In this document: piece after piece, positions 1,897-16,081 of the stretch
Layout of the letters: every line of letters starts with the position of its first letter
How positions within the stretch are numbered: position 1 is the stretch's first letter
Source: a virus
Reading direction: 5' to 3' (one strand)
DNA: 38,200 bases
IMG/VR virus record: IMGVR_UViG_3300042326_001025
Location: 1-38,200 of that record
Notes under the pieces: model-generated
Seen by the model: only the letters and a program-made list of their open reading frames with translations
What the model was told of the DNA's origin: nothing
Database searches by the model: none
Translations under genes and position numbers: made by a program

Positions 1897-2311
1897 TCTT
1901 CTTCATGTCCTTTAAAACTTTTTGAAGCTCAGCTGTTGAACCAACAAACAGGTTATTATTAATTGTTTTAGCTTTTTCGTTAATTGGGCTATCAGAAGTG
2001 CTTATATCTCTGATTTTAGTTTGTAGATCTAATAGCTTTTCATTAGCTACTAACATTGTGTCCATAAGTTTAGCAAGAACTTCAAACGCTCTTGGGTGTT
2101 GAGAACTATCTGCGATCTGAGCTAATTTTATCATAGCTTCTTGACCGTTTTCGATCATATTATGGATATTTGCTCTAGCCACCTCGAAATCTTGTTTTGC
2201 GCTATCATTATGCGCATCAGCAATCATTTTCGAAACCACATCAACTTCTTTTTCAACAGGTGTTAATCCAAGAGCTTTACCAATCGGATCATCATTATTT
2301 TCTTCGTTCAT
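1883..2311 (-). CDS. 16: Terminase small subunit gp16
   Basis: A 142-residue, mostly helical acidic protein lies directly before gp17 and overlaps it by 14 bases. The central region (about residues 40-105: ARANIHNMIENGQEAMIKLA, then AFEVLAKLMDTM) matches the helical core of T4-family gp16. That protein forms rings and regulates the gp17 motor during recognition of concatemeric DNA. Its start shares an ATGA overlap with the gp15 stop, so gp15, gp16 and gp17 look translationally coupled. Length is close to the T4 protein (164). The call rests on both position and sequence character. Confidence 0.9.
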   Translation of the reverse strand: MNEENNDDPIGKALGLTPVEKEVDVVSKMIADAHNDSAKQDFEVARANIHNMIENGQEAMIKLAQIADSSQHPRAFEVLAKLMDTMLVANEKLLDLQTKIRDISTSDSPINEKAKTINNNLFVGSTAELQKVLKDMKKNGDA

Positions 2312-3171
2312 TCTATCTCATCTGTGTTGTAAACTTGGGTTATATATCCAAAATCATCGCTAATCTCAATGTCAGTATATGCTACCGTGCCTAAACTGGT
2401 GTTTGGTTGACCAAAGTAATTTATAGGATCACCATTAGCAGTTAATCCCGGTTGCACCGTAACTTTTTCTATGATCGTTGTGTTGCCAACTGCAGTTTGT
2501 AATTTACCATCATCAACATTAGGTATGTAAAAATTAGTGTTGACAAACTTAATAATGTTAGACTTTTTAACAGGTCCATACAAATATCCTTTTAATTCTA
2601 AATCTAAAGTCCATATAATGGCTCTTCTTTCTTTAAAATCACCATCATAGTTGTCACTATAACTGATATTGTTTAATATGATCGGTATGTCCATAGTAAC
2701 TTCTACTTCAGGTATCAAATTAACTGTAGTAGTCCAGTCCGGAGTAAAATAGGGAAGTATTTGCTCAATTATTTTAGTTCCATCTTCTGCATTTTTTGCA
2801 TAGATGTAAACTTTAAATTCTATATTGTATGGAACTGGATTGTATTGATATTTAAATTTGCTGGCAGATGTAGCGTCTTTTACTGAGGATTTTCCAATCG
2901 TATTAAGTTTTCTTGTTCCATCATATACCATTTTTCCCATTTCAAAAGAAATAGCAGGAAGAGGAATTGTAGCTGTTTGACGATCAATAGCTGTATCTTG
3001 AATAACACGAGACAGCATTTTATCTTTTGGGGCATATGTAATAGGAATTTTCAACAATGACGTTTGATTGCCGCTAGAATTAGTGCGGGTTATACGTATA
3101 TTATTAAAAAGAGTCCCGGTAAGAATTACATACTTACGTAGTAAACTAAAATAAAACGGTGTACTGAACAT
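2308..3171 (-). CDS. 15: Tail completion / sheath stabiliser protein gp15
   Basis: This 287-residue protein starts MFSTPFYFSLLRKYVILTGT, has LFNNIRITR and 'IPITYAPKDKMLSRV' near residues 20-60, and 'IIEQILPYFTPDWTTTVNLI' in the middle. All of these align with T4 gp15 (for example LFSNIQIKR, PITYASKEHFM, QIVEQILPYFQPHFNTT). In T4, gp15 caps the completed tail and joins it to the neck. The length is near the T4 protein (272). Its start forms a TAATG overlap with the gp14 stop and its end an ATGA overlap with gp16. Confidence 0.93.
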   Translation of the reverse strand: MFSTPFYFSLLRKYVILTGTLFNNIRITRTNSSGNQTSLLKIPITYAPKDKMLSRVIQDTAIDRQTATIPLPAISFEMGKMVYDGTRKLNTIGKSSVKDATSASKFKYQYNPVPYNIEFKVYIYAKNAEDGTKIIEQILPYFTPDWTTTVNLIPEVEVTMDIPIILNNISYSDNYDGDFKERRAIIWTLDLELKGYLYGPVKKSNIIKFVNTNFYIPNVDDGKLQTAVGNTTIIEKVTVQPGLTANGDPINYFGQPNTSLGTVAYTDIEISDDFGYITQVYNTDEIE

Positions 3172-3893
3172 TATATTGTTCTTTCGCTAAACGGATCATA
3201 AGCAGTAAAGTCAACAAACAAATCAGACTCTCTTTGTATCTCATCGTTGTCTGCAGAAGGAATAAGATCATTTATACTAGATCCTTCAAGGACAATAATG
3301 TTGCCTTCTTCATCCAATATCATAGCACCAGTTTCGTCTAATACAGCCCAATGGTATTGATTGGTGTCAAATTTCTTTTGCAGAATATCAATTTCTGGAA
3401 TACCAGTACTCAAAATTTCACCAGCATACTCGAACAATTCACAAGTAACTTCCCAAGTTTGTAAAGAGCCAAGTTGATAAAACATCTCGAACTTGTTTAC
3501 ATATTTAATTTGAAAACATTTCTTATTCAATGGGAAATAAATTAAGTCTCCTTCGTTAGGGCGAACCTGATTAGTAAACGTCCCAATTTCTTCATTGAAT
3601 ATTCTTTGTGCCATAGAAAATACAACTCTGTCTCTAATTTCTAAACCGAACTTAGACATAAAGTTTCCATCGCCCTGAAAACCGTCGACGTTTTTAATAT
3701 AAATTTCTATAGGGTAAGCATTTTCATAACTTGATTGATCATCAGCTCCATAAACAGCATCGTAGTTGTTAAGTTTTCGAGGAATGTAATACATGTCCTC
3801 TCCATAAATTTTTATGGATTCAATAATCAAATTTTCAAGTAAAAGCTGTTCTTGAGAAGATTGAAAGTTATTGAAGAAAAAATTAGTTGCCAT
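3171..3893 (-). CDS. 14: Neck protein gp14
   Basis: A 240-residue protein begins MATNFFFNNFQSSQEQLLLE and carries 'IYGEDMYYIPRKLNNYDAVYG' around residues 29-49, then 'DRVVFSMAQRIFNEE' and 'FQIKYVNKFEMFYQLGSLQ'. These are hallmark segments of T4-like gp14, which with gp13 forms the head-tail neck and lets the filled head accept the tail. T4 gp14 is 256 residues. It lies between gp13 and gp15 as in T4 and shares a TAATG stop/start with gp15. Confidence 0.93.
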   Translation of the reverse strand: MATNFFFNNFQSSQEQLLLENLIIESIKIYGEDMYYIPRKLNNYDAVYGADDQSSYENAYPIEIYIKNVDGFQGDGNFMSKFGLEIRDRVVFSMAQRIFNEEIGTFTNQVRPNEGDLIYFPLNKKCFQIKYVNKFEMFYQLGSLQTWEVTCELFEYAGEILSTGIPEIDILQKKFDTNQYHWAVLDETGAMILDEEGNIIVLEGSSINDLIPSADNDEIQRESDLFVDFTAYDPFSERTI

Positions 3894-6502: not shown

Positions 6503-7282
6503 TTACACCATTAGTTTGTTTAAAGTATCAGTATTGATAGAACCTGTTACTGTTAAACCGTTTTTTTGTTGAAATTCTTTAACTGCTTGTTCTGTTTTAG
6601 GACCAAACGCTCCATCAGCAGTTATTTTAGCGCCCTTCCTAATTAACATATTTTGAAGGTCAGCAACGTAAGGAGAGTTATCACCAACTTTAGCAACCAC
6701 GATAGGTGGCACAATAGGATCTGTTGGTGGTGCAGGAGGCGGAACAAAGCTGAAATTTTTAGGTATAACTTGTTTAGATCTAGCCAAGTATTTTTTGCGG
6801 TCGTCGAAACCGTTTAGACCACCGTTAATACGACGAGTAATAAGCTCAACATTATCAGCGTCGGCAAGAGCATTAAGCTTTCTTGACTGCCAATATTCAA
6901 GAGCAGTTAAAACAGAAACCTCTGGAGACTCAGCAAGCTCAGGATTGTTTTCTAAGTCATATCCAATCTTAGCACCGATAGTGCGGTAGTTTGCTCTGCC
7001 TGTAAGCTGGAAAATACCACGACCCTTGTAACGAATGCCGTCGCCTTTCTGAGTATTTCCAAGAGACTTTACTCTTCCTTCATATGCTGCACCTGAAGCA
7101 TATTCTTCGAGAGTGCGGAAAGATGCAGATTCGTGAGCAGCTTGTGAAAGAAAATGACATACACGCAGGTATGTGTTTACTTCATATTTTGGCATATGAA
7201 TGTTTAGATACTTAACCAAAGGATCAATAATCTCGTCCTTTGAGTTTGGTGCTATTTGTTTTAATTGTTGCTTGGTTATCAT
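6503..7282 (-). CDS. Endolysin: GH19 lysozyme/chitinase-like domain plus PG-binding domain
   Basis: A 259-residue cell-wall hydrolase. Residues about 1-170 form a GH19-type domain with SQAAHESASF (candidate catalytic E51), a second acidic site at E59/E60 and the conserved KGRGIFQLTGRANY (86-99). A Pro-rich linker (about 180-194, PPPAPPTDPIVPP) leads to a C-terminal peptidoglycan-binding type 1 domain (about 199-258; LQNMLIRKGAKITADGAFGP). I chose the start at 7282 rather than the in-frame ATG at 7306. It gives MITKQQLKQIAPN, the usual family N-terminus, forms an ATGA overlap with the preceding fibre gene and has AAGGA a few bases upstream. No signal peptide is seen, so export depends on a holin. 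Confidence 0.92.
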   Translation of the reverse strand: MITKQQLKQIAPNSKDEIIDPLVKYLNIHMPKYEVNTYLRVCHFLSQAAHESASFRTLEEYASGAAYEGRVKSLGNTQKGDGIRYKGRGIFQLTGRANYRTIGAKIGYDLENNPELAESPEVSVLTALEYWQSRKLNALADADNVELITRRINGGLNGFDDRKKYLARSKQVIPKNFSFVPPPAPPTDPIVPPIVVAKVGDNSPYVADLQNMLIRKGAKITADGAFGPKTEQAVKEFQQKNGLTVTGSINTDTLNKLMV

Positions 7283-8802
7283 GTTCCTTGTAATCCTATT
7301 ACCCATACGCGAACTTCACCTCGCGCACCTGTGTTTGCTGCAGTGTTAGATGCTCCACCACCTCCTCCTGGGATAATTCCAGCGTATGCGCCCGAAGTGT
7401 TAGCAGCACCGCCAGAACCTGCAAATGCAGAAGTTCCACCAACCATTGTTTGGTTGGAGTTTGCAGCAGCGCCACCACCACCGCCGTATATTGAATTACC
7501 GCCAGAGTTAGCATTTCTTGCGCCACCACCGCCTCCAAATATACTTGATCCACCAGCAGCACCAGATGCATTACCACCTCCACCACCTCCGTAAGTTGAT
7601 GCGCCTCCAGGAGCTCCTGTAGCACCACCCAATGGAGTTCCACCTGCTCCAGTAGTAGCTCCATTACTGAATGTTCCACCACCACCGCCTCCAGTAGTTG
7701 GAGATGCACCCGCACCACCACAAACAGTAAAAGATCCGAAAGAAGAATTTGATCCGCTACCAGCAGTGCCTGTGGCTGTTGTTGTTGTTCTAGAAGCACT
7801 TCCTCCTGTACCAACAGTTACTGCAACAGTTGATCCTAAATCTGACAATTCATATGTTATAATACCAGCACCACCGCCACCGCCGCCAATTGAAACACTG
7901 TTGTTAGAAGAACCACCACCGCCACCAGAGATAGCATAAACTATTACTTGCTCTGTTCCTGTTAATCCTGCTGGAGCTCCAGTTGTGCTTTTAAAAAATA
8001 CACTAGAAGGGATTAATGCAATAGAACCATCGCTTGGTTTTCTCCAACCGACCTGAAATCCATCACCACCTCCACCTTCTTGCATTCTTGCTCTAAACGT
8101 GTAGTATTGTCCAGCTGTTAAACTTATTGAGCCAGAAACTTGTCCTACGCCAGCCGTCCATGAAGCTGCAAAACCATGACCACCATAAAAATTAGCAACA
8201 TTAACGCCATTTACAAAAACGTCCATAGCATCGTCGCCATCACAACCAAAAAAGTATGTACCAGTTTCGGGAGCAAGTATATATCCTTCTACCATCCAAG
8301 AAAATTGACCAGCCGGAAGATATGCAGGTTTAGATCCTGTAGCACCTCCAGCTCCAGTAGTAGCTACATCTGCCCAATTTATGGTAGTAGAATGTGTTCC
8401 GGAACCACCGAAAGTTACTGTTGGACTGACTGTTACAGTGTTGAATAACGCATCTAATCCAGCTTCAGTCGTTGGGTTTGTACTTGTTCCTTGTGTATAA
8501 TATGTGTAAGTTAAACCAGCCGATGCATAATATGGGTTATTCCATGTACCACTAAGAGAAAATTCTTGATAATCAAGGATGCCGCCATAAAATCCATTAA
8601 AGGGTTGACCACCAACAACCAATAATGGAGTATTTAATCCAGAAGAATTAGCTACTACATTACCGACAGTAATTACAGAGCTATTTACTGAGGAATTGCC
8701 TAAAATAATTGCATTGTTTAATACGTTTAAAGATTTTACAATAACGCTACCAGATAAACCTGTATCTGTTACTGTTGCATTAGCTACATTTAATGTTGAC
8801 AT
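7279..8802 (-). CDS. Glycine-rich adhesin with PA14 domain
   Basis: A 507-residue fibre-type protein. Residues 1-70 are the short Asn/Ser/Val-rich stem found at the N-terminus of many fibre genes here (MSTLNVANATVTDTG). Residues about 165-272 form a PA14-like beta-barrel (WMVEGYILAPETGTYFFGCD, then DAMDVFVNG, YTFRARMQEGG, FQVGWRKPSDG, IPSSVFF). PA14 domains in adhesins and glycosidases bind carbohydrate, often with calcium held by adjacent Asp residues; here the matching segment is CDGDDAMD (187-194). Residues about 290-507 are a glycine-rich domain with repeated S-(I/V)-(Y/F)-G-G-G-G-G blocks, ending GARGEVRVWVIG. It is the likely receptor-binding protein nearest the lysis genes. The specific ligand is unknown. 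Confidence 0.8.
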   Translation of the reverse strand: MSTLNVANATVTDTGLSGSVIVKSLNVLNNAIILGNSSVNSSVITVGNVVANSSGLNTPLLVVGGQPFNGFYGGILDYQEFSLSGTWNNPYYASAGLTYTYYTQGTSTNPTTEAGLDALFNTVTVSPTVTFGGSGTHSTTINWADVATTGAGGATGSKPAYLPAGQFSWMVEGYILAPETGTYFFGCDGDDAMDVFVNGVNVANFYGGHGFAASWTAGVGQVSGSISLTAGQYYTFRARMQEGGGGDGFQVGWRKPSDGSIALIPSSVFFKSTTGAPAGLTGTEQVIVYAISGGGGGSSNNSVSIGGGGGGAGIITYELSDLGSTVAVTVGTGGSASRTTTTATGTAGSGSNSSFGSFTVCGGAGASPTTGGGGGGTFSNGATTGAGGTPLGGATGAPGGASTYGGGGGGNASGAAGGSSIFGGGGGARNANSGGNSIYGGGGGAAANSNQTMVGGTSAFAGSGGAANTSGAYAGIIPGGGGGASNTAANTGARGEVRVWVIGLQGT

Positions 8803-8803
8803 T

Positions 8804-9793
8804 TTAACCTGCTGTCTTTGTTATAAACACACGAACTTCGCCGCGACCACCATTACCACCGTTAGTAGTATTCGCTCCACCACCACCCGCCGGAACATAT
8901 CCATCCCTTAATAGTGTAGTGCTTAGTACGATTCCCCCGTTACCGCCAAATATAGAAATTCCACTACCGCCTCCTGCGCCGCCGTAAATAGTATTTCCGC
9001 CGCCAGCAGGAGAGGCGCCACCTCCGCCTCCATAAACTGATGCACCACCAGCAACACTGGTGCTATTTCCACCACCCCCACCACCAAAAGTGCTGGCCAC
9101 TGAATTTGCACCACCCAAAGGACTGCCTCCAGTAAAAGTAGAGCCAGATGAGAACCATCCTCCTCCGCCTCCACCAGCCCAATTAGTAGTTCCATTAGCA
9201 GCAGCTCCACCGTATGCGGTGATCGCCGCAGACACTGTGCTGTTTGGATAAAATATAGAATTTCCTCCAGCAGTCGTTGTTGCGGTAGTTGTATTTCCTA
9301 CTCCACCTGTTGCAACTACTACGTTACAGACAGAGTTGCATTCACCTGCTAACTTATTAACTATAACACACGCACCACCACCACCACCTAAAGAGAAACC
9401 TGTAGAGTTTCCAGTGCCACCACCTCCGCCGCCCCAAAGCATGATTGTCACTAAATCATTATTAGTAACCCAAGATGGTTTTGACCAAGTTCCATTTGCA
9501 GTAAATATTTGTGCGTTTGATATATTTGAACTGTTTGATATGCGATCATATGTTACGCCACCATAAGTCAAATTAGAGGTTGAAAACGCAGTAGTATTAA
9601 TTGTTGTATTAGAAGTAGAATTTCCTAAACTGATAGCAGTTGTGTTTATTGTAACATTTGCTGTGCTATTACCAACTATCATAGTTGTTGTGTTAGCCTG
9701 AATAGTCAAATTACTTGTAGCACTGGTAATAATTAAGTTACCAGCAATAATTACACTATCTGTCGATAATTTAGCAGTATTTACTTGTGACAT
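8804..9793 (-). CDS. Glycine-rich tail fibre/adhesin protein (paralogue 2)
   Basis: A 329-residue protein. Residues 1-95 are an N-S-T-rich fibre stem with repeated GNST(A/S)N(V/T)TINTTA motifs. Then comes NAQIFTANGTWSKPSW (about 93-108), the entry strand of the 'TWxKP' glycine-rich domain, followed by repeated GGGGG blocks and a C-terminus GGRGEVRVFITKTAG. The glycine-rich part is clearly paralogous to the first glycine-rich domain of the 622-residue protein just upstream, including a conserved CNSVCNVVV segment. By analogy with phage adhesins that use packed polyglycine helices, it is probably a fibre tip or adhesin. One base separates its stop from the next start. Confidence 0.75.
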   Translation of the reverse strand: MSQVNTAKLSTDSVIIAGNLIITSATSNLTIQANTTTMIVGNSTANVTINTTAISLGNSTSNTTINTTAFSTSNLTYGGVTYDRISNSSNISNAQIFTANGTWSKPSWVTNNDLVTIMLWGGGGGGTGNSTGFSLGGGGGACVIVNKLAGECNSVCNVVVATGGVGNTTTATTTAGGNSIFYPNSTVSAAITAYGGAAANGTTNWAGGGGGGWFSSGSTFTGGSPLGGANSVASTFGGGGGGNSTSVAGGASVYGGGGGASPAGGGNTIYGGAGGGSGISIFGGNGGIVLSTTLLRDGYVPAGGGGANTTNGGNGGRGEVRVFITKTAG

Positions 9794-9802
9794 GTTTAAC
9801 CC

Positions 9803-11671
9803 TTATGCAAACTCTATAACTACCAATCCATTACCACCGTAAGATCCTGAATCTCCAGAAACTGCGCCTCTATTACCACCAGCAGCAACACCGCTTCTAT
9901 AATCAGCATCAGCATTTCCAGGAGCAGTAGTAGATCCAGACGAACCTTGTGTGTTTGTTACGGATGTTGCGCCAGTAACGTAACTTGAACCGCCACCTCC
10001 TCCACCACCAGAGTCATCGTTACCGTTACCGCCTCGAGCACCACCGCCGCCTCCGTAATAACCAGCACCACCGCCACCACCGGAGCCACGTCCACTTTCA
10101 TAACCACCTCTACCAGATAATCCTGAAGTAGCTGTTATAATACCATCGGAACCATTTAGAGCAGCTGCTCTACTTGCGTTGACAGCATCGCCACCAAAAA
10201 GATAACCACCAGATGATGCAGTAGCACTATCACCCTCGCGCCCGGCACCCCCAGCAACTTGAGATCCGCCGCCACCACCTAGAGCAGTACCTCCGCCGCC
10301 TGATAGACCTGTGGTTCCACCACCACCTCCACCAGAACCGCCAGCGTATGTAGCATCACGACCACCACCTCCGCCGCCACCACCGCCAGCTATAAGTAAC
10401 GGAGTTGAACCTCTGAAAACACCAGACCAAGATCCACCTGAACCACCACCGTTTGGTGCAGTAAGTCCACCTTCTCCGCCTTCAGCAGTAAATGCAAACA
10501 ATGTTTCACCAGCAGTAACTGAAACTGTGCCTTTTACAAATCCTCCAGCACCACCAATACCACCTAAACCAGACCAAGAAGCGCCTCCGCCTCCACCACC
10601 ACCCCAAAGTTTAATTGTGGCTGTTGTGTATCCTGCAGGAACTTTTACTGCTGTTTCTCCAGGAGTAGTAAGAACGTATCTTGTTTGAACTTCATCTAGA
10701 TATCTAAATGTGTATACTCTGACTTCGCCACGAGCGCCAGCACCAGTAATAGTTCCACCACCACCAGGAATCCCAGCAACTGTTAGAGTGCTGTTTGCTC
10801 CGCGACCACCATAAACTGAAGATCCTGCAGCAGCGACAAAAGTGCCACCACCACCACCAAAAATAGAAGAACCCCCAGCAGATGTTTGGTAACCCCCGCC
10901 ACCCCCGCCATAAACTGAAGATCCGCCGATACCGCCCGTAGAAGAGTTTGATCCGGCTCCACCACCAAATGTAGAAGTTCTTGTAGATTCTGTCGCACTT
11001 ATGGTTCCTCCTAGTGGTGCACCACCAGTAGCTGCAACACCCGTAGATGTTCCAACGCCCAACCAACCGCCACCAGCACCACCGCCTGTGGCAGTAGTGT
11101 TAGCAAACCCACCAGCTCCACCGTAAGCAACTAAACTGATTGTGGTATTAGCATAAAAAATAGAGTTTCCACCATTGTTTCCTGGATTTTCGTCGGCAGG
11201 TACTGCTCCACCTACTCCAACAACAACGTTACAAACAGAATTACACTGAATTGCTTTGAAATACCCTTGCACATAAGCACCGCCTCCTCCACCAGCAGCA
11301 GTTGCTCCAGGATCGTGACTGCCTGAACCACCACCACCCCACATTTGAACCATAACAAGCTCGTTGCCTGTGTTAGCCCAAGTTGGTTTTGACCAAGTTC
11401 CATTGGCAGTAAATATTTGCGCGTTTACTGTTTCTGAGTAAATTTTTGTTACGGATACACTATTGACAGTTAAATTCGAAAATGCAACTGGTGTTTTTAA
11501 AGTAATCGAACCAGACTTAATAGAAGCAACGTTACTAGTAAACCCAATATAAGAACCAGGATCTATACCTACGCTAGTAGAGTTTATGCTCTTTGCATAA
11601 TCAGGATCATAAATAGTGTTAGCAGATAAATTACCTGTAACATTCAAAGTTGAAACTCGTAGTTCTGACAT
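9803..11671 (-). CDS. Double glycine-rich tail fibre/adhesin protein (paralogue 1)
   Basis: A 622-residue protein with an N-terminal stem (1-85), then two glycine-rich domains. The first (about 86-310) opens NAQIFTANGTWSKPTW and closes GARGEVRVYTF, and pairs with the 329-residue neighbour. The second (about 325-622) opens with VPAGYTTATIKLWGGGGGGG. It contains LLIAGGGGGGGGGRD, GGGGGAGYYGGGGG and GGGGGSSYVTG, and ends GGNGLVVIEFA. That order resembles the glycine-rich region of ALK-type receptor ectodomains and many bacterial and phage glycine-rich modules, which fold as packed polyglycine-II helices. A perfect TATAAATA late promoter lies 35 bases upstream, so this is the first gene of the adhesin-lysis transcription unit. 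Confidence 0.75.
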   Translation of the reverse strand: MSELRVSTLNVTGNLSANTIYDPDYAKSINSTSVGIDPGSYIGFTSNVASIKSGSITLKTPVAFSNLTVNSVSVTKIYSETVNAQIFTANGTWSKPTWANTGNELVMVQMWGGGGSGSHDPGATAAGGGGGAYVQGYFKAIQCNSVCNVVVGVGGAVPADENPGNNGGNSIFYANTTISLVAYGGAGGFANTTATGGGAGGGWLGVGTSTGVAATGGAPLGGTISATESTRTSTFGGGAGSNSSTGGIGGSSVYGGGGGGYQTSAGGSSIFGGGGGTFVAAAGSSVYGGRGANSTLTVAGIPGGGGTITGAGARGEVRVYTFRYLDEVQTRYVLTTPGETAVKVPAGYTTATIKLWGGGGGGGASWSGLGGIGGAGGFVKGTVSVTAGETLFAFTAEGGEGGLTAPNGGGSGGSWSGVFRGSTPLLIAGGGGGGGGGRDATYAGGSGGGGGGTTGLSGGGGTALGGGGGSQVAGGAGREGDSATASSGGYLFGGDAVNASRAAALNGSDGIITATSGLSGRGGYESGRGSGGGGGAGYYGGGGGARGGNGNDDSGGGGGGGSSYVTGATSVTNTQGSSGSTTAPGNADADYRSGVAAGGNRGAVSGDSGSYGGNGLVVIEFA

Positions 11672-11705: not shown

Positions 11706-11713
11706 TATTTATA
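11706..11713 (-). promoter_or_regulatory. T4-type late promoter (exact TATAAATA)
   Basis: The minus strand reads exactly TATAAATA, 35 bases before the start of the 622-residue glycine-rich gene. It lies in the only divergent gap of the window (11672-11730). The same AT-rich gap must also hold the promoter of the plus-strand oxygenase gene, for which I see no clear motif. Confidence 0.7.
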
Positions 11714-11730: not shown

Positions 11731-12936
11731 ATGAGCACGCCACAAGAATACTTCAAAAACAACAAGTATGTCCATATCACCAAAATTCTTGATGATAAAA
11801 CTTGTTCAATGTTATCTGAACATCTTATCAAAATATCAAAAGATTTAAAAGAAGGAGACCATCAGTGTCCTTTATCGCCCTCTATTTATGGGGATTCGGT
11901 GTTTGACACTTTGTTAGAAGATTTAAAGCCAGCAATGGAAGAATCAACAGGGTTGAAGTTAAATCCTACTTACTCTTACGCTCGTTTTTATAAGCCTGGA
12001 GAAAAATTAAAACCTCACACCGACAGAAGAGAATGCGAAATTAGCGCAACGATTACGCTAGGATTCGATGGTAACTTATGGCCAATATGGCTGTCAGAAT
12101 CTACTGATTCAAAGGATAATCCTAGAGAATATAGAGTCGAATTGGGTGATGCTCTTATCTATAGAGGTATGGAAATCAATCATTGGAGACAACCATACAA
12201 GGAAGGAAATTGGCAGTGCCAGGTTTTCTTACATTATGTTGATGCTAATGGTAAGTATAAAGATTTAGAGTATGATGGAAGAAAATCTTTAAAAACAACA
12301 AAACAAGAACCAATTTTACAAGCTCAAAAACCAAGAAAAGAATATGACGATAGATTTTGGTATTTTGGTAATAAACAAGAAGAAAAACATCTTTGGGTTT
12401 ACGAAGAAAAATTTTTGTCTAGCGGTTTAATTGATTTAATTGTCGAAGGTGGTAAAAATGAACTAGAACAAGCTACCATAGGTTACGGCGGCAAAGGGGA
12501 ATCAATAAACAAAGACATAAGAAACGCATATGTTGCTGGTATCGATCCTAAAAATTTCGAATGGTTATATAAGTTAATTGAAAAAGAAGTCGCAAAACAA
12601 AATTTAGAAAACTACAAATTTAATTTAGATAAAATAGAACACTTGACATATATTGAATATCATGCTGATGATAAAACTCCTGGCAAATACACCAAACATA
12701 CGGACGGAGTGATACACAAAACAAGAAAGCTTTCTTTCAGCTTGCTTCTCTCTGATCCTAGCGAATATGAAGGCGGAGATCTATTAATTTGGTCTAGTAG
12801 AGGTGCAGAAGCCATGCCTAAGAAAAAAGGATTAATTGCGTTTTTTCCCGCCTATACAGAACACGAAGTAACCCCTGTTACAAAAGGTGTCAGAAAATCT
12901 TTAGTTGGTTGGATTCACGGACCACATTTTACTTGA
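11731..12936 (+). CDS. Tandem two-domain 2OG-Fe(II) oxygenase
   Basis: A 401-residue protein and the only plus-strand gene. It has two double-stranded beta-helix oxygenase domains in one chain. Domain 1 (about 12-172) has HTD (H96, D98) and distal H151 in EINHWRQPY. Domain 2 (about 210-400) has HTD (H323, D325), distal H378 in TEHEVTP and R388 in GVRKSLVGW, the classic 2-oxoglutarate-binding arginine at His+10. The equivalent position in domain 1 is W161, so domain 1 keeps the iron triad but not that arginine. The family hydroxylates protein side chains, nucleobases or small molecules; prolyl-4-hydroxylase-like members are common in aquatic T4-like phages. AGGAGA stands 7 bases upstream. Its end overlaps the opposing gene by 8 bases. 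Confidence 0.88.
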   Translation: MSTPQEYFKNNKYVHITKILDDKTCSMLSEHLIKISKDLKEGDHQCPLSPSIYGDSVFDTLLEDLKPAMEESTGLKLNPTYSYARFYKPGEKLKPHTDRRECEISATITLGFDGNLWPIWLSESTDSKDNPREYRVELGDALIYRGMEINHWRQPYKEGNWQCQVFLHYVDANGKYKDLEYDGRKSLKTTKQEPILQAQKPRKEYDDRFWYFGNKQEEKHLWVYEEKFLSSGLIDLIVEGGKNELEQATIGYGGKGESINKDIRNAYVAGIDPKNFEWLYKLIEKEVAKQNLENYKFNLDKIEHLTYIEYHADDKTPGKYTKHTDGVIHKTRKLSFSLLLSDPSEYEGGDLLIWSSRGAEAMPKKKGLIAFFPAYTEHEVTPVTKGVRKSLVGWIHGPHFT

Positions 12937-14249: not shown

Positions 14250-14900
14250 TTAAAACTCCTTTAATATTACATCAATAGTTGATTTTATTGTTTTAATTTG
14301 AACATCGTTTAAATTTTCAATTTCATTAGTATCATAGTACAATTTTACCTGTTGAGTAAAAGGTCTTGATCCATCTACTTCATCAACTTTCAACATGGTA
14401 AAATTTTCATTTATCCTTTGTAAGGAATATTTATTTTGAAAATAAGATAAACAATTTTCAGTTTCACAAATTATTTTTTTATGTGAAATCATTTCAACAT
14501 TTTTATTCGACCAATATGTAAAATACCTATTGTACAGTCTACAAAGTTTTTCTACGCTGCAACGAACTTCTGCAACATACCCTTCATTATCAGGGTCTTC
14601 AAACGGTAAATATATCTCTGTATGCCCTGTTTCATAATGTACGTCATAAAACAATTCTAAATCATAAGACTTTCGGTATAAACTATCAATCCATTTAAAT
14701 GGATCTTTATATATGATTACCGGAACAACATCGTTTGGCATCTTGTTATACCAACTATCGTGTAAACAATGCTTGTATAATTTACCTTCTATAGTATATT
14801 TTTCAATTACTGTAGAGTTATACTTAAAGTTTTTGTCAAGAAGCTGTTGTAAAAAATTAGTTCCCGATCTGTACAACCCCATAGCGAAAATACAATTCAT
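14250..14900 (-). CDS. Sulfotransferase-like protein
   Basis: A 216-residue protein. The N-terminus holds a sulfotransferase-type 5'-phosphosulfate loop, MGLYRSGTNFLQQLL (residues 7-21), after a short hydrophobic strand. The second nucleotide-binding element appears as VIIYKDPFKWIDSLYRKSY (61-79), matching the 3'-phosphate motif hhhxRDPxxxxxSxyr with Lys in place of Arg. Family members transfer sulfate from PAPS to sugars, lipids or tyrosines; the substrate here is unknown. I chose the ATG at 14900 (ATGA overlap with the fibre stop, GGAAAGG upstream) over an in-frame ATG at 14912. The gene is AT-rich (12 of 60 bases G or C in 14281-14340). It lies between the two pieces of a glycine-rich fibre. 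It could instead be a degenerate P-loop protein with another role. Confidence 0.72.
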   Translation of the reverse strand: MNCIFAMGLYRSGTNFLQQLLDKNFKYNSTVIEKYTIEGKLYKHCLHDSWYNKMPNDVVPVIIYKDPFKWIDSLYRKSYDLELFYDVHYETGHTEIYLPFEDPDNEGYVAEVRCSVEKLCRLYNRYFTYWSNKNVEMISHKKIICETENCLSYFQNKYSLQRINENFTMLKVDEVDGSRPFTQQVKLYYDTNEIENLNDVQIKTIKSTIDVILKEF

Positions 14901-16081
14901 ACGCCTTTCCAAGAAACTCCGATCAATTCTTCATCATACCAGTCATCATTAGCGACAACAAACCCATCCGCTATAAAACCTACTCCTTTGTCTAACATAA
15001 TGCAATAAACAGGTTCTTCTGGATCAGAGTTTATTTCCCATTCGCAGCTAGTTTCTGACCATCCATCTACAGTAGCAAAATTATGAACACCTAAAGGAGA
15101 TAAAATTTTCATATCGTATATCGGGTCGCCAGATTTATACGATGGTGTAGTAATTTCGTCTTGTAACCAGCTATTATAATTGTAAACACCAAAACGTTCG
15201 CCTGTTTCGTCTTTAATCCACAACTCATGATCGTCAGTAATTCTTAATGGTTTTGCATTTTCATTAATTTTTAAACGAACAATTTTTCTGTGTCGTTTTA
15301 ACGTAGTTGGATTTAAATAAAGCACAGTACCTATTTCGCCTGTAAGCGTTTTTAATTTATCTCCAGAAACTATATCACAAATATTTTTTGTGGTGCCATC
15401 ATACATTAATATTTGGCTATCAGCAGCTAAACAAGGAGAAGGGTCCGGTAGTGCTGACGAAGAATCCCAATCTCCACCTCCACCTCCACCACCACCACCA
15501 CCGCCAATAGTACCGGAGTTTACGATAGTATATGTTGCTGCAGAAGTTAGTCGTATTGCATGGCCTCCGGGCGATCCAGGATCACCAGGATCAGTAGCGT
15601 AATTTGTTCCTGATGGTGGAGTAGGAGCAGAAGCAGTCCCACCTGCACCACCTGCACCACCCATTCCTACAATAAATGTGTTTACACCAGTAACTATTCT
15701 GACATTTGCAGGCGCGGAACCAGGAAACGATCCAGATTCTAAAGCAGCGTTAGCAGTTGATGTTGAATATAACACAGTTTGGACAGCAGTAGTTGGTGAA
15801 GGAGAAACAAGAGTTACGTTTGCTGTTGCTCTTTTAATACCAGTCCATCCAGCTGCAGCAATTGCGTCATATATGTTATAATTGGCTGTGTTTGTGCTAA
15901 TGGTAAACGTTTTATAAAATGCACCAGCAACATCAGTTATGCTAATGGCTGTACCTGGAGTCGAAGGTCCAGTGCTAAGAGTAGACCTCATAAAAGCATT
16001 ACTCATACTAAATGCTGTTCCTGGAGTTCCATCTAACTCCAAAGAAATAGCAGCAAAAGAAACATTAGTTGTCGCTACCAT
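14897..16081 (-). CDS. Glycine-rich tail fibre protein with C-terminal Hint (intein-like) domain
   Basis: A 394-residue protein. Residues about 1-90 are a beta-rich fibre domain (ISLELDGTPGTAFSMSNAFM), and about 91-190 lead into a glycine-rich tip (FIVGMGGAGGAGGTA, then TYTIVNSGTI). An uninterrupted run of 11 glycines occupies 193-203. At Cys217 a Hint domain begins (CLAADSQILMYDGTTKNICD) with block-B-like RITDDHELW (T282, H285). It ends with GVGFIADGFVVAND (365-379, candidate terminal Asn378). Sixteen residues follow and the protein stops, with no normal fibre tip after the Hint. Inteins usually end His-Asn followed by Cys/Ser/Thr; here they are Ala-Asn then Asp. Self-cleavage is therefore more plausible than standard splicing. 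No homing endonuclease domain is present. Confidence 0.8.
   Translation of the reverse strand: MVATTNVSFAAISLELDGTPGTAFSMSNAFMRSTLSTGPSTPGTAISITDVAGAFYKTFTISTNTANYNIYDAIAAAGWTGIKRATANVTLVSPSPTTAVQTVLYSTSTANAALESGSFPGSAPANVRIVTGVNTFIVGMGGAGGAGGTASAPTPPSGTNYATDPGDPGSPGGHAIRLTSAATYTIVNSGTIGGGGGGGGGGGDWDSSSALPDPSPCLAADSQILMYDGTTKNICDIVSGDKLKTLTGEIGTVLYLNPTTLKRHRKIVRLKINENAKPLRITDDHELWIKDETGERFGVYNYNSWLQDEITTPSYKSGDPIYDMKILSPLGVHNFATVDGWSETSCEWEINSDPEEPVYCIMLDKGVGFIADGFVVANDDWYDEELIGVSWKGV
14948..15433 (-). other. Hint domain (hedgehog/intein fold) coding segment
   Basis: The segment encodes Cys217 to Asn378 of the fibre protein, about 162 residues, a normal size for a mini-intein or bacterial intein-like domain without endonuclease. 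Key positions seen are C217, T282-x-x-H285 and N378. The penultimate His is replaced by Ala377 and the +1 residue is Asp379. The N-terminal Cys and TxxH allow thioester formation in principle; the C-terminal junction is non-canonical. Confidence 0.75.

Follow-up and report, generated by a model that had tools for sequence, protein, structure and literature searches.

The phage protein family phrog_2954, annotated as ferrochelatase, almost certainly has an oxygenase fold and a wrong name, as judged from a predicted structure and a conserved iron motif. Here, we describe a marine virus gene in which a member of this family is fused to a second 2-oxoglutarate (2OG)-Fe(II) oxygenase. The misnamed family and its partner are a more consequential result than the missing co-substrate arginine on which a preliminary description of the gene, made from its sequence, had centered.

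The stretch of DNA analyzed (the window) is a 38,200-base IMG/VR virus fragment with T4-like genes (terminase, neck, sheath stabilizer, endolysin, tail fibers, and baseplate). The open reading frame (ORF) at 11731-12936, preceded by the ribosome-binding site aggagag, is the sole clear plus-strand gene of its neighborhood. Proteins with 97, 95, and 89% identity to its 401-residue product are encoded on the IMG/VR contigs L001, L002, and L003, respectively. The dN/dS ratio was 0.11 to 0.19 for domain 1 (L001 to L003, with L003 spanning this domain in part only) and 0.14 to 0.17 for domain 2 (L001 and L002). The ORF is a genuine gene under purifying selection; an artifactual ORF was rejected on these related contigs (89 to 97% identity) and their dN/dS (0.11 to 0.19). 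The gene and its parts are as follows.

11731..12936, plus strand: two-domain 2OG-Fe(II) oxygenase gene (401 amino acids [aa], ATG start), kept in L001, L002, and L003; dN/dS, 0.11 to 0.19
11731..12300, plus strand: domain 1 (aa 1 to 190), predicted double-stranded beta-helix (DSBH) oxygenase fold; phrog_2954, E value of 4e-43; model pLDDT, 95.5; pTM, 0.91
12301..12375, plus strand: linker (aa ~191 to 215), predicted disordered; pLDDT below 50 at 201 to 216
12376..12933, plus strand: domain 2 (aa 216 to 401), PiuC/P4H-like oxygenase with H323, D325, H378, and R388; PF13640, E value of 1e-15; phrog_61

Fold and naming of domain 1

Domain 1 matches phrog_2954 (PHROGs description, ferrochelatase; identical with T4-GC 615) with an E value of 4e-43. 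No Pfam profile matched it above the cutoff, the best being the AlkB-like PF13532 (E value, 0.01), and its own profile drew weak Tet-like matches alone from PDB sequences (E values of 0.065 and above); because these matches are weak, the family was placed by fold and motif. The predicted structure is a DSBH over its full length, as read from strand order and full-length fold matches. The best PDB match was the P. putida prolyl hydroxylase 4j25 (Z, 17.3; rmsd, 2.8; 166 residues aligned), and SnoN (Z, 17.1; rmsd, 3.5; 185 aligned) and PHD2 (Z, 16.9; rmsd, 3.1; 174 aligned) scored similarly. A Z of 8 or more was reached by 833 of the 1,000 PDB chains compared, and the top rows were all 2OG oxygenases. 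There was no ferrochelatase chain among the fold matches listed, and the model is a 2OG-oxygenase barrel, not a chelatase fold. The ferrochelatase profile (PF00762) had no match at an E value of ≤0.1 in 16 family members, S-PM2p234 included, and the weak best Pfam matches of these 16 were 2OG oxygenases.

The S-PM2 member (S-PM2p234) already carries the ferrochelatase name, and T4-GC 615 has been listed as "Hyp. with ferrochetalase domain" (PMC3037559). PHROGs and two recent pelagiphage papers use the label for phrog_2954; one of the papers found each phage ferrochelatase adjoined by a 2OG oxygenase and discussed heme (PMC9599517), and the other reported phrog2954 as enriched in seasonal viruses (PMC11561400). 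The S-CREM1 deposit names its family member 2OG-Fe(II) oxygenase, and the 023Pt_psg01 deposit gives both names. A correction of the label was not found in the open-licence papers searched. Domain 1 has all conserved residues in common with phrog_2954/T4-GC 615 of cyanophages and pelagiphages and differs in being joined, in the window protein, to another oxygenase.

At least 590 relatives of domain 1 were found in IMG/VR viral contigs, and genome contigs of bacteria and archaea gave another 55. These collections were scanned with a closer 8-row family alignment, the 16-row alignment being too diverse for pattern scans.

Iron site and co-substrate anchor

Residue conservation was counted in 142 aligned domain 1 relatives from phages and bacteria, with the following sites.

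11983..11985, plus strand: R85, two residues ahead of the conserved Y87, candidate co-substrate ligand; 141/142
12016..12027, plus strand: HxDR motif (H96-T-D98-R99) with the proximal iron ligands and an invariant Arg; H in 141/141, D in 141/141, R in 140/141
12181..12189, plus strand: distal His motif (H151-W152-R153); H, W, and R each in 142/142
12211..12213, plus strand: W161, the counted H+10 site; W in 30/33 fused proteins, variable elsewhere

In PHD, 2OG is anchored by an arginine of strand VIII (PMC7864055), likewise in OGFOD1 (PMC4396695), and in JmjC enzymes by a lysine (PMC9712658). The preliminary description had seen two full iron triads in one 401-residue chain and a first domain without this arginine, with Trp161 in its place. 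Both triads are confirmed (H96/D98/H151 and H323/D325/H378), the domain 1 triad being complete and invariant in the 141 to 142 sequences counted. R388 does lie at H378+10, and W161 lies at H151+10 by count, but the true counterpart of the PHD-type arginine is probably N160 or Q162, because the VII-VIII turn is one residue shorter in most relatives and the conserved face of strand 162-171 falls on even positions (Q164, F166, and H168). Neither residue is arginine, nor is W161, and the lack of the canonical arginine therefore stands. Strand parity was used for this placement because the hhalign alignment of domain 1 with domain 2, in which the proximal and distal iron ligands align at low probability, ends before strand VIII.

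None of the 142 relatives has arginine at distal His +10 to +14. Lysine occurs at H+10 in 4 sequences (arginine in 0), and H+9 has arginine in 5 and lysine in 15; arginine and lysine are scattered at +8 and +9, and neither is conserved. The strand-VIII Arg (or Lys in P4H) that PHD and P4H enzymes have 9 to 10 residues past the distal His is thus missing from domain 1, and no lysine is conserved at ≥90% anywhere in the domain (142 sequences), as a JmjC-type anchor on strand IV would be. Across these sequences, the missing arginine is a trait of the whole domain 1 family and not the lesion of one protein; a mutation special to the 401-aa protein was rejected on the same count (0/142). W161 is variable in single-domain relatives but is kept in the bacterial sister branch as well as in 30 of the 33 fused proteins.

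Three invariant basic residues, R153, R85, and R99, lie near the iron motifs of domain 1. Y87 is invariant, and Q164 (140/142), F166 (141/142), and H168 (140/142) are conserved. Odd positions form the conserved face of strand 77-87 (Y81, Y83, R85, and Y87), which places R85 and Y87 on one face. We take Y87 to be the equivalent of the PHD2 co-substrate tyrosine Y303 (..ACY303PG..), which lines the 2OG pocket, and R153 presumably occupies the position of PHD2 V376, two residues after H374. By strand parity and this PHD-type comparison, R153 or R85 would face the 2OG pocket. The preliminary description had counted another basic residue filling the site against its own reading, and this objection holds in part, in that R153, R85, or R99 could serve as far as the sequence tells.

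In the order of Brevundimonas, 25 of the 299 genomes searched had homologs, mostly in a divergent sister branch (Caulobacterales) with the motifs HxD[RA]..CEHS and [YR]xHGR...W. In the sister-branch sequences examined, R153 is always kept, but Gly or Ala replaces W152, three have Ala in place of R99, and one lacks R85; HGR/HAR or HWR stands at the distal His in all bacterial loci examined, this branch included. R153 is the best candidate for a relocated anchor because it is kept where W152, R99, and R85 vary; whether it is the main anchor of 2OG appears evenly balanced on sequence and analogy. The chromosomal loci of the divergent branch (L161 to L182) show HGR, a conserved Trp, and WSAHLFLHWVD. 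Some genomes of the Brevundimonas order hold several homolog copies, and one locus (L169) has two in tandem.

Domain 2, pairing, and gene context

The PF13640 match of domain 2 is above the cutoff (E value, 1e-15) and, with the 2OG-oxygenase barrel modeled for domain 1, bears out the tandem oxygenase domains proposed earlier. The triad and the H+10 arginine of domain 2 occur in 33/33 fused proteins (an additional HxD at H311 is not the conserved one), and PiuC and P4H structures are among the matches to its profile. Domain 2 shares the triad, the H+10 arginine, and an RxS-like motif with PiuC/YbiX PKHD-type hydroxylases and phage phrog_61 oxygenases (PF13640) but is far from them in sequence. 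In the full-length model (pTM, 0.53), both domains are confidently predicted, and residues 201 to 216 form a disordered linker. The top whole-chain fold matches were the ribosomal prolyl hydroxylases Tpa1/OGFOD1, which likewise have two tandem barrels per chain; they have a metal site in the first barrel only and tightly packed barrels, whereas the window protein has both triads and a linker predicted to be flexible (pLDDT below 50). According to a 2015 paper, tandem barrels were known among 2OG oxygenases in the uS12 hydroxylases alone, and their second barrel lacks a metal site (PMC4396695). Recent duplication of one domain of the window protein from the other was rejected, because each is a member of a different family with relatives of its own.

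Viral loci were counted in the best 80 of at least 590 viral relatives. Fused two-domain chains (365 to 430 aa) make up 27 of these 80, and a separate domain-2-like gene lies in the ~4-kb flanks of 47 of the 53 unfused loci (within 400 bases in 25 of the 47). The same pairing also occurs in the cultured phages S-CAM8, P-RSM4, S-MbCM6, HTVC033P, and Mosig. Both triads, R388, R85, R99, and R153 are invariant in 33 fused proteins. Because fused proteins fall in two separate clades of the tree (window clade, SH-aLRT 99; cyanophage clade, SH-aLRT 97), fusion probably arose at least twice. The phrog_3531 and cyanophage fusions (S-SCSM2R, S-T4, and ACG-2014f) have the same order, a phrog_2954-like domain and then a PF13640-like oxygenase, but form the separate clade, are ~28% identical to the window protein, and probably stem from a separate fusion event. 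A fused homolog at 2243-3568 of a contig binned as Lokiarchaeota (L138) is closest to that of cyanophage S-SCSM2R, and the contig is probably a phage contig within that bin.

Bacterial pairs were found in a Legionella metagenome-assembled genome (MAG) (L122; genes overlapping by 4 bases), an Erythrobacteraceae MAG (L148), and Brevundimonas (L146). No domain-2-like gene was found in the fetched flanks of the bacterial chromosomal loci L101, L129, and L133, and this stand-alone occurrence speaks against a purely accessory role of domain 1. The preliminary description had also taken the opposite-strand location as the mark of an acquired gene. The gene does oppose its neighbors, and its relatives occur in unlike phages, but the inference is weak: most relatives are codirectional with their neighbors, and the HTVC008M oxygenase cassette also opposes structural genes.

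Three consecutive Gly_rich_2 proteins are encoded at 7279-11671 of the window, including two putative substrates of the oxygenase.

8804-9793, minus strand: glycine-rich tail-fiber-type gene, putative substrate; PF21722 (Gly_rich_2), E value of 1.6e-9
9803-11671, minus strand: glycine-rich tail-fiber-type gene, putative substrate; PF21722 (Gly_rich_2), E value of 1.9e-9

The third (7279-8802, minus strand) is a single phage protein with PA14, GLEYA, and glycine-rich domains, of the sugar-binding adhesin type. Next to the oxygenase gene, in the gap between the divergent genes, TATAAATA (11706-11713, minus strand) matches the T4 late-promoter motif by eye, ~35 bases ahead of where the minus-strand gene 9803-11671 starts. 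The tail-fiber cluster also holds a possible sulfotransferase (14250-14912, minus strand; PF13469, E value of 0.006, below the cutoff), which might decorate fibers or the host surface. The gene at 14897-16081 (minus strand) encodes a tail adhesin that has a Gp38-type domain (PF05268); its C-terminal part resembles a Hint/intein-type domain (CLAADSQILMYDGTTK...GDKL), a part that has no Pfam call for Hint/intein.

A glycine-rich gene lies at most two genes away at 22/29 fused loci versus 7/53 unfused loci; the association is concentrated in one clade and its cases are not independent, with only 5 of 11 clusters at 70% identity showing it. Neighbors of fused loci match Gly_rich_2 and phage tail collar domains. 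Because tail genes cluster anyway, location is weak evidence for the substrate. Glycine-rich genes do not adjoin the fusions of the separate cyanophage clade, the S-SCSM2R copy lying by glycosyltransferases. There (L007), the fused oxygenase is directly followed by three glycosyltransferases, one of them assigned to family 25 by annotation, and by a radical SAM maturase, and hydroxylation followed by glycosylation is conceivable.

In Brevundimonas poindexterae (L146, 442-5932), the domain 1 gene sits inside a lasso-peptide cluster, with the cyclase on one side and the B2 protease on the other. The cluster comprises an HprK-like kinase, a PqqD-like protein, an asparagine-synthase-type cyclase, a short precursor-like ORF, the domain 1 gene, and a Transglut_core3 B2 protease; beyond the protease, on the opposite strand, lies a PF13640 oxygenase, giving two different 2OG-type oxygenases in one cluster. 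This cluster context is the likeness to CanE, the lasso-peptide Asp beta-hydroxylase, an Fe/2OG enzyme acting on lasso precursor peptides (PMC9266682). The domain 1 loci L148 and L145 adjoin NTP_transf_5 genes, and some phage loci of the family lie near DNA metabolism genes.

Competing readings and implications

Taking the protein as a whole, we lean toward a bifunctional Fe(II)/2OG oxygenase with two DSBH domains on a flexible linker. Domain 2 would be an ordinary PiuC/prolyl-hydroxylase-like oxygenase. Domain 1, to go by sequence and model, is likely to be catalytically active with 2OG, and an active enzyme with its anchor moved is the likeliest reading, ahead of a dead or regulatory domain. 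It would bind iron and 2OG and hold the 2OG C-5 carboxylate by a relocated arginine, likeliest R153 on strand VII, with R85/Y87. Less surely, both domains would hydroxylate the same ribosomally made polypeptides, which in the window clade may be the glycine-rich tail adhesins next door. The glycine-rich fiber neighbors and the lasso-cluster homolog suggest peptidyl hydroxylation, and together with the NTP_transf_5 neighbors they favor ribosomally made polypeptides as substrates. For the fused form in phages, tail adhesins come to mind first, although as a claim in its own right this is tentative and somewhat more doubtful than probable.

A noncatalytic domain 1, serving in substrate recognition or as a scaffold with domain 2 as sole enzyme, is quite unlikely. 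Its missing arginine fits such a role, and the leading whole-chain matches, Tpa1/OGFOD1, are known tandem barrels with one dead domain (PMC4396695), but that dead barrel has no metal site, whereas the domain 1 triad is kept in all 141 to 142 sequences; the predicted linker is flexible, and homologs stand alone on bacterial chromosomes (L101, L129, and L133). The recognition or regulatory role put forward in the preliminary description consequently no longer leads. Nor does its other suggestion, a different co-substrate. An iron-binding domain 1 with another co-substrate, or a 2OG-independent oxygenase, would explain why the entire family has no conserved Arg/Lys at the canonical strand-VIII site; we consider this very unlikely, given three invariant arginines near the iron motifs, the invariant Y87, active-site residues conserved as in a working enzyme, and the JmjC lysine as precedent for an anchor elsewhere (PMC9712658).

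Substrates of the pair other than phage or host polypeptides (small molecules, free amino acids, or nucleic acid) would accord with the weak AlkB-type resemblance (E value, about 0.01), the small-molecule enzymes among the fold matches (SnoN and BesD-like enzymes), and the DNA metabolism genes near some phage loci. The AlkB scores are far under the cutoff, however, domain 2 is P4H/PiuC-like, and the lasso-peptide context favors peptides, which makes this alternative unlikely. A ferrochelatase partnered with the adjoining oxygenase in heme or iron supply has the long-standing label in its favor (S-PM2, T4-GC 615, PHROGs, and the papers cited above) but is scarcely credible against 0/16 profile matches, the complete iron triad in a 2OG-oxygenase barrel, and a lasso-cluster homolog with no link to heme.

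In the active-oxygenase reading, domain 1 may, with less than even confidence, found a structural subclass of 2OG oxygenases whose anchor arginine is at distal His +2 (strand VII, HWR/HGR) in place of the strand-VIII Arg or strand-IV Lys and which, with the partner oxygenase, would hydroxylate ribosomally made peptides and phage adhesins in two steps. The family is well suited to testing which positions 2OG oxygenases can use for their co-substrate anchor. With at least 590 relatives in IMG/VR, phrog_2954 is common in ocean phages. If its members are oxygenases, statements on phage heme metabolism and on seasonal auxiliary metabolic genes would need revision (PMC9599517 and PMC11561400), and the ferrochelatase always found next to an oxygenase would become a two-oxygenase pair. 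The two-domain gene is a lead toward hydroxylated phage tail adhesins.
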